A stretch of 64,000 nt of DNA, taken from assembly GCA_020846025.1 (NCBI GenBank), contig JADLER010000029.1:1-64000 (forward strand), read 5' to 3'. A program made the position numbers and the translations under genes. This document shows, piece by piece, positions 26,212 through 28,129 of this stretch (position 1 is the first letter of the stretch; every line of letters begins with the position of its first letter). The notes under the pieces were generated by a model. It was not told the DNA's origin. It saw only the letters and a list, made by a program, of their open reading frames with translations, and did not search any database. This stretch comes from Bacteroidia bacterium (lineage in GTDB: Bacteria > Bacteroidota > Bacteroidia > B-17B0 > Aurantibacillaceae).

Positions 26212-26919
26212 ATGAAAATAGCATTACTAGGATACGGTAAAATGGGAAAAGAAATTGAAGCCATTGCCATTCAAAGAGGTCATCAAATTGTATTAAAAGT
26301 AACCGATGAAAACGCTTCAACTATTACCGACCAAGATCTATTACAAGCCGATGTTGCTATTGAATTTAGTACGCCACATACTGTAATTGAAAATATTAAA
26401 CGATGTGTAAAATTAAAACTACCAGTTGTGGTTGGCACTACAGGTTGGTATGATGAATTTAACGAAATTGAGCGCTTGTGTTTAGAAAATAAATCCGCTT
26501 TATTTCATGCCACCAATTTTAGTCTTGGTGTTAATTTATTTTTTAAAGTAAACTCTTACTTAGCCGAATTAATGAATAAATACTCTCATTACGAGGTGGA
26601 AATGGAAGAAATTCATCACATTCATAAATTAGATAAGCCAAGCGGGACAGCCATTTCGTTAGCTAATCAAATTATTGATAAGATAGATAGAAAAAATAAT
26701 TGGAGCATTAGCAATAAAGAAACCGATACTGTTTTTATAAAAGATGTAAGAGAAGGAGAAGTGCCAGGTACACATATCGTTAAATATTTTTCCCCTATTG
26801 ATGATATTGAAATTATGCACAAAGCGCATAACCGAAAAGGATTTGCCATGGGAGCCGTCATTGCTGCGGAGTTCTTAAAAAACAAGCACGGAGTTTATTC
26901 TATGAAAGATTTAATTTAA
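26212..26919 (+). CDS. dapB: 4-hydroxy-tetrahydrodipicolinate reductase DapB
   Basis: This NAD(P)H enzyme of the diaminopimelate/lysine pathway supplies both lysine and the peptidoglycan cross-link. The 235-residue form is shorter than E. coli DapB (273) but normal for Bacteroidetes. The Rossmann motif is IALLGYGKMGKEIEAIA. It has VVGTTGW in the nucleotide site and the signature EEIHHIHKLDKPSGTAISLA containing the catalytic His and Lys. It ends the parA-parB-DUF5683-dapB run. A hairpin at 27123-27146 may terminate this transcript. lepB, which often follows in flavobacteria, is absent. Confidence 0.93.
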   Translation: MKIALLGYGKMGKEIEAIAIQRGHQIVLKVTDENASTITDQDLLQADVAIEFSTPHTVIENIKRCVKLKLPVVVGTTGWYDEFNEIERLCLENKSALFHATNFSLGVNLFFKVNSYLAELMNKYSHYEVEMEEIHHIHKLDKPSGTAISLANQIIDKIDRKNNWSISNKETDTVFIKDVREGEVPGTHIVKYFSPIDDIEIMHKAHNRKGFAMGAVIAAEFLKNKHGVYSMKDLI

Positions 26920-26950
26920 TTAAAATCATCCTGCGATATAAAGTGCATTT

Positions 26951-27123
26951 TAACCCAGATTGTGCATTAGAAATTAGTAATGAGAGTTAAAAGCCCAATA
27001 AAATATGAACTTTTGCGAATGAAGCGTAGCCACTGCTACGGTGATTGAGAAAAAGTTGCGAAGCTTCATATTTTGCAGGGATTTTAGCTCGTAATAGAAT
27101 TGCTAATGCATAATCTGGGTTTA
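26951..27123. repeat. 173-bp nested palindromic element (MITE- or REP-like)
   Basis: Arms of about 59 nt, 26951-27009 and 27065-27123, are largely complementary (shared cores CCCAGATT-TGCATTAG and AAAATATGAA). The centre holds a second hairpin, CGTAGC-CACT-GCTACG (27025-27040). The whole can fold into one long imperfect hairpin. It lies in the 295-bp gap between dapB and a lipoprotein gene. I see no second copy in this window and no clear target-site duplication. Confidence 0.65.
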
Positions 27124-27146
27124 ATAGGATAAAATTATCCTATTTT
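27123..27146 (+). terminator. Hairpin with T-run, likely terminator of the dapB operon
   Basis: AATAGGATAA (27123-27132) and TTATCCTATT (27135-27144) are exact complements, followed by TT and preceded by the palindromic element. It is AT-rich, so strength is uncertain. It is roughly symmetric and could work in both directions. Confidence 0.4.
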
Positions 27147-27188
27147 CAAAAATAAAAACTAAACCCTTATAAATTTCAAACAATTTAT

Positions 27189-27196
27189 TATATTTG
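27189..27196 (+). promoter_or_regulatory. Candidate -7 promoter box for the lipoprotein gene
   Basis: TATATTTG matches TAnnTTTG exactly, 18 nt before the start codon at 27215. No clear TTG at the -33 distance. Confidence 0.3.
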
Positions 27197-27214
27197 ATAT
27201 AATATATTAAAACA

Positions 27215-28129
27215 ATGCCTATGCCTATTAAACGTATATTAGCTAGTTGTTTGCTTATTTCGTTGTTCTTATCTGCTTGTCAAAGTAACTCTGAACAAAC
27301 AACGGCTAACGACTCTCAAGAAAATTTAGATTCTATAGCCCAAACAAATGATTCGAATGCAGTAACTGAAGAAGAAGTGAGTTTTAACTTGCCTTCTGCC
27401 TTACAAATTGCTTATGTACTCCGAAAATCAGGTGTTGAGTACGATCAAAGCTTGATGAATAACCCGAAAAACGCTTCAAAATATACTACTACTAATTACA
27501 AAAAGGCACTAAACTTTGGGGTGTATAGTACCGATTTAGCATATTGTATATTTAACAAACGCTTCCAGGAATCTAAAGAAAGTTTAAAAGCTTGCAAAGA
27601 AATTGGTTCTTCATTAGGCTTAAATCAAGCATTTGAGTCTGATAATATGGCGCAACGTTTTGATAAAAATATTTCGAATGAAGATTCAGTTGTAAAAATT
27701 GTTTCAAGTTTACAATTAAAATCTGATGCCATTTTTGAAGAAAACAAACAGGAACATATAACTGTTTTAGCCTTTACTGGAGCATGGACAGAAAGTTTAC
27801 AAATTGCTATGAGTATGTACGGAAAAGAAAACGAACAATACACGAAAGAAACTGGTAGTAGAAAAATTTTAGGAAATATTTTAGAACAATTATTAATGTC
27901 TGAAACCATCATTAGAGCATTAAAGAGTGTACAAAATTCCGAAACTGAAATTCCAGAACTGATAAGGAAAATTGAAGAAATCAACTCTAAAACTGTTACT
28001 ATATCAGCCATAGAAAAAGCGATGGAAAGAGATGAAGATATAGATTTTAGTACATTATCAATTTCCGCTAACGAATTAAAACCAATTAATGATTTAGTAA
28101 GTAACCTAAGAAATCAAATTATCAACTAA
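27215..28129 (+). CDS. Hypothetical lipoprotein
   Basis: I do not recognise a domain. The 304-residue protein has a lipoprotein signal (RILASCLLISLFLSAC, lipobox L-S-A-C, Cys22 from the first ATG; a second ATG two codons later is equally possible). It then has an acidic Ser/Asn/Gln linker to about residue 55. The rest is alpha-helical with few Cys: SALQIAYVLRKSGVEYD, VYSTDLAYCIFNKRFQESK and VLAFTGAWTESLQIAMSMYG. It should sit in a periplasmic-facing or surface membrane leaflet. A small exported protein gene follows after 11 nt, so the two are probably one operon. The function is unknown. Confidence 0.75.
   Translation: MPMPIKRILASCLLISLFLSACQSNSEQTTANDSQENLDSIAQTNDSNAVTEEEVSFNLPSALQIAYVLRKSGVEYDQSLMNNPKNASKYTTTNYKKALNFGVYSTDLAYCIFNKRFQESKESLKACKEIGSSLGLNQAFESDNMAQRFDKNISNEDSVVKIVSSLQLKSDAIFEENKQEHITVLAFTGAWTESLQIAMSMYGKENEQYTKETGSRKILGNILEQLLMSETIIRALKSVQNSETEIPELIRKIEEINSKTVTISAIEKAMERDEDIDFSTLSISANELKPINDLVSNLRNQIIN

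Follow-up and report, generated by a model that had tools for sequence, protein, structure and literature searches.

What is the nested palindrome that lies just past dapB in this contig, and what keeps it palindromic? Folded as RNA, the 213 bases 26931-27143 of the window (the whole stretch of 64,000 nucleotides analysed) reach -80.7 kcal/mol; 200 dinucleotide shuffles average -41.2 ± 3.75 (z -10.5), and not one is as stable. This confirms the nested palindrome noted in a preliminary description made from the letters alone. The length given there, 173 bp (26951-27123), has to be corrected: the palindrome stands, but the element proper measures 166 bp, and the remaining bases are parts of the TTTAA repeats on either side (Table 1). 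The TIRs are 17 bp long (CCCAGATTRTGCATTAG), and the two ends of the copy at the dapB locus (CCCAGATTGTGCATTAG / CTAATGCATAATCTGGG) differ at one base. With at most 3 mismatches, the TIR pattern occurs only twice in the 64-kb window, at the two ends of the element, for a chance expectation of 0.05. No ORF of at least 60 aa was found inside the 166 bp.

Table 1. Coordinates of the element and of related features in the window.
Feature	Position	Strand	Basis or remark
Full MITE copy, 166 bp, near-palindromic end to end	26954..27119	+	Borders from comparison of 46 copies; multi-copy
Left TIR, CCCAGATTGTGCATTAG	26954..26970	+	Also adjoins IS1380-family transposase genes (0-3 mismatches)
Right TIR (reverse complement CCCAGATTATGCATTAG)	27103..27119	-	TIR pattern scan and copy comparison
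Left 5-bp target duplication, TTTAA	26949..26953	.	Copy comparison
Right 5-bp target duplication, TTTAA	27120..27124	.	Copy comparison
Inner stems past the TIRs (alignment columns 31-63 with 97-139), paired changes	26984..27090	+	Helices 2/3/4: 5/5/6 double-change pairs
Central hairpin (alignment columns 70-90)	27023..27042	+	RNA folding and covariation
40 bp from one end of another, decayed copy (L015), 85% identity	20077..20116	-	Same 64-kb window

The element starts 35 bp past the stop codon of dapB (TIGR00036 match). The gene downstream (27215-28129) has no match in NCBIfam or Pfam, so that the initial remark on lepB often following dapB does not apply to it. Around the element, a tract of about 750 bp (26501-27250 of the window; 1051-1800 of L001, compared with L018) differs at a single base between two sister species, which diverge by roughly 10% outside it. 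Such near-identity suggests a recent inter-species recombination that carried the region of the element.

We then quantified the copies. Searching the genome of origin (G000) with the 173 bases returned 17 rows, 4 of which were dropped as the palindrome matching itself on the opposite strand. The 13 places left comprise 6 full-length copies, 2 partial ones (134 and 115 bases) and 5 short fragments. Copy number had been proposed as the check, a single copy favouring a local structure, and the element turns out to be multi-copy. At least 14 full copies were found in the sister species G014 (MAG KLAP24). At the family level, 14 of 87 genomes (own included), belonging to 2 of 10 genera, had a match at E≤1e-12; no more than 9 candidates per genome entered the scoring, which makes the copy numbers of this search lower bounds. 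Of 100 relatives (own included), 13 matched at E≤0.001, in some cases through the ends alone. When the genome collection was scanned for exact TIR-to-TIR stretches, 14 were recovered: 11 come from KLAP24, two from Cytophagales MAGs and one from a Maribacter MAG. The three from outside KLAP24 are of similar length (164-173 bp) but differ in their interiors. The TIR-to-TIR pattern was present in only 2 of 395 genomes across the class, so that the element is not common in this sample; the plasmid collection gave no match.

Other elements of 164-183 bp carry these TIRs around unrelated interiors (L035, L026 in G027, L166 in G035, L128, L134 and L137); at the centre of L166 and of those in G027 is a TIR-like palindrome, CTAATGC-ATTAG. 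At L033, L034 and L142, one insertion occupies the same place in three species of another genus, with flanks 79-86% identical; a copy can therefore persist through speciation. These three loci were considered as a case of paired change in place, and set aside: L033 resembles another subfamily, and gene conversion or replacement is possible.

Traces of insertion were sought at the boundaries of the copies. From 46 distinct copies we kept the 38 in which both ends match at 6 or more of 8 positions, the 8 poor-ended ones being dropped; L001 and L018, the same insertion in two species, were counted separately. A perfect 5-bp direct repeat flanks 28 of the 38, in line with the direct repeats that the preliminary description had proposed to look for, and is missing from 10, as expected from decay or rearrangement. 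Several of the repeats (TTTAC, TTTAT, TTCAA, TTGAA, ATTAT) are non-palindromic, and are therefore real duplications rather than the mere symmetry of a TTTAA target. All but one of the 38 copies lie outside ORFs of at least 90 aa. Where flanks were inspected (L090, L162 and L031, with L098, L012 and L129), some copies sit in the T run of apparent intrinsic terminators and others 1-2 bp from a stop codon; a TTTAA-like target may steer insertions toward gene ends.

Comparison of the two sister species provided empty sites. When eight G014 copies were set against the G000 loci, the dapB copy alone was common to both genomes. For three of the seven other G014 insertions (L104, L105 and L106), a search with the joined flanks across the junction recovered an element-free site in G000. 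Those of L105 and L106 are in the T runs of terminator-like hairpins, with the target present once; that of L104 is less clean, as the target bases themselves differ. At the site of L107/L109, about 505 bp of other DNA separates the flanks in G000, and the remaining three sites gave partial matches or none. At the dapB locus itself, no empty site was shown among 19 loci with an orthologue of the downstream gene (L054-L072, 1.5-kb flanks). Among these, dapB is upstream of the orthologue in the own genome and in G014 only, and G014 has the element as well.

The palindrome could instead be a single local RNA or regulatory structure of this locus. Its short distance to the dapB stop codon and its presence at the same place in G014 would fit, but copies in unrelated places, with target duplications, speak against it, the copy number refutes it, and the pair formed by dapB and the downstream gene is not kept at the other loci examined. 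We hold this explanation to be very improbable.

Which transposase could have moved these copies? An end-only match in G075 pointed to an IS1380-family transposase gene (NF033539, E 1.6e-69, above cut-off). Compared with 395 genomes of the class, its protein matched 11 at E≤1e-60, and in 7 of these 11 the 17-base TIR adjoins the IS1380-family gene with 0-3 mismatches: 2 in G000, 2 in G035, 0 in G027, 2 and 0 in G075, 3 and 1 in G158, 3 and 3 in G198, and 0 in G215 (the ends of L124 were left out of this tally). Related ends, CCCAAAT or CCCAGAT, were seen in three others of the 11 (L118, L121 and L122). The gene of G158 is intact (256 bits on NF033539). That of the own genome is truncated to 185 aa; it is 86% identical in DNA to the G035 gene, a DNA search found no other such place in G000, and its TIR differs at 2 of 17 bases. 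In G035, the MITE copies and the IS have in common the variant GCAATAG, as expected if the ends of element and transposase change together. Five IS-like elements had both flanks readable, and a perfect 5-bp repeat was present in L118 only. Beyond the TIR, no subterminal similarity between MITE and IS was apparent by eye.

The search for a transposase using the same ends, suggested at the outset for the Y1 and DDE types, thus succeeded for a DDE enzyme (IS1380), truncated in the own genome. The two genomes richest in copies, G000 and G014, whose assemblies are incomplete, yielded no intact IS1380 transposase with these ends. The transposase of G008 (L036) and the truncated one of G014 (L039), the only candidate in that genome, are not obvious partners, as their IS1380 subtype is another one and has different ends (CCGTAAATAGACAG). 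In G014 (contig C47, L039 and L093), the gene of this other subtype has a CCGTAAACAGACAG left end, and a MITE-type right end of some 25 bp truncates it; the locus is a chimeric remnant.

Because of its dispersed copies, the 5-bp repeats, the empty sites and TIRs matching those beside an IS1380 DDE transposase, we consider it highly likely that the palindrome behind dapB is a MITE moved in trans by an IS1380-family transposase, which upholds the MITE proposed in the preliminary description. An IS with the same 17-bp ends would make the IS1380-family DDE transposase, which would act at the TIRs of the MITE; insertion would occur into AT-rich, TTTAA-like 5-bp targets, mostly intergenic, with duplication of the target. 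Movement in trans is probable on the evidence of the ends, and we infer that the partner transposase of this genome is either no longer functional or missing from the assembly.

That the genomes richest in copies yielded no intact IS1380 transposase leaves some room for a transposase of another family that recognises similar ends by chance. Against such a coincidence stand the 17 of 17 TIR matches beside IS1380-type genes in G075, G215 and G027, the 15 of 17 beside the IS1380 fragment of the own genome, and the GCAATAG variant common to the MITEs and the IS of G035. We regard it as improbable.

The preliminary description had also envisaged a REP-type element. A REP/BIME-type repeat moved by a Y1 (TnpA-REP) transposase would likewise be a palindromic intergenic repeat, but the copies have 5-bp target duplications, their 17-bp TIRs are common to an IS with a DDE transposase, and Y1_Tnp gave no match in the own genome and two in G014. 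REP elements are not known to have target duplications or long TIRs. The REP-type part of the proposal has to be abandoned, and we give it next to no probability.

The MITE can be placed among known systems. It resembles the IS1380 family (NF033539; ISEcp1) in its 17-bp ends, the same as in members from other Bacteroidota, and in its AT-rich 5-bp target duplication, as reported for ISEcp1 (PMC2887853); it differs from an IS of that family in having no transposase gene and a palindrome across its whole 166 bp. MITECca01 of Cardinium and the MITEs and BrickBuilt elements of P. gingivalis are also short, gene-less and mostly intergenic, with IS-type ends (PMC9769881, PMC4596501), but they are tied to IS982 and IS5, not to IS1380, and MITECca01 is about 240 bp long. 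MITEPye1 of Paracoccus and QMITE2 of Coxiella are likewise short; both have TIRs and direct repeats and are predicted to fold stably as RNA (PMC11578231, PMC10969869). They have other hosts, MITEPye1 is of the IS1182 family, and no covariation test was seen for either in these sources. REP/BIME repeats with RAYT transposases are palindromic and intergenic too, but REPs are 20-40 bp long (PMC3733652), and the MITE differs from them by its target duplications and IS1380 ends. In the parts consulted of the open literature on IS1380, MITEs, Bacteroidetes and compensatory change, no report of this MITE family and no link between a MITE and IS1380 in Bacteroidota was found. The family is new; the kind of element is an ordinary one.

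We next examined the palindrome itself on an alignment of 36 of the 46 copies. Seven were dropped because their ends were poor or their borders wrong (L016, L025, L032, L038, L131, L144 and L155) and three for unrelated interiors (L128, L134 and L137); L024 and L150 were retained despite decayed ends or gaps. RNAalifold predicted 51 pairs, 26 of them with double changes. Over the 35 distinct rows, pairing holds in 97.1% of pair cells, against 89.4% in shuffles, with 27 double-change pairs against 12.3 and 125 double-change cells against 27.9, and none of 500 shuffles reached the observed value for any of the three. These counts are inflated by relatedness, and the structure was derived from the same sequences; the margin is large. 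When the register is slid by 1-3 columns, paired cells fall to 39-45%, and double changes are present in all six helices. Far beyond the TIRs, the palindrome is kept by paired changes across species. The initial claim that the fold is kept rather than the exact sequence thus holds through covariation, but not through the example then quoted, G versus A at one TIR position, which is only of the G.U type.

Two processes, alone or together, may account for these paired changes: selection on a folded strand, and homogenisation of the arms by template switching. Mutation by template switching is known to produce paired changes without selection (PMC8794818). Every row except L148, which is deleted at this point, keeps a 10-base bulge (columns 106-115), and the pairs on either side of the bulge show joint changes. 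Such a bulge amid paired changes would be hard to obtain by a single contiguous template switch.

The two strands are not equivalent. As RNA, the + strand folds more stably in 36 of 36 copies, by 13.7 kcal/mol on average, and the consensus fold energy is -46.8 on the + strand and -21.4 on the - strand. Over 61 register pairs, G.T cells outnumber A.C cells 122 to 34, or 24 to 14 by column. Among the 38 copies, the gene order >MITE> was seen 12 times and <MITE< 4 times.

A further reading, which adds to that of a MITE, is that the folded + strand transcript of the mobile element, made by read-through from neighbouring genes, is under selection; the hairpin may then serve in end protection, termination or regulation of transposition. 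It would agree with covariation across the whole stem, with the greater + strand stability of all aligned copies, with the G.T excess and with the gene order. The copies are of common descent, however, so that the counts are not independent and the excess shrinks by column; the structure itself came from + strand folding; five other same-ended elements have no common strand pattern; and template switching can yield paired changes as well. In Rfam, the 501 bases around the element matched no family, the only hit being a sub-threshold miRNA-family match (E 0.45; 17.6 bits, where the gathering score is 144). Constraint on the + strand transcript is possible, and such selection is, in our view, rather unlikely. 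A hairpin family spread by IS1380 transposition and then held at its sites, for example as a protector of mRNA ends or a regulator of its own transposition, would be an equally minor possibility.

The MITE after dapB thus offers a multi-species copy set of one bacterial MITE, tied by its ends to the IS1380 family. Its copies are divergent enough to ask whether the pairing of a MITE is kept by selection on the folded strand or by template-switch mutation. This is a general question for bacterial hairpin repeats, and the kept palindrome is the one point worth following.
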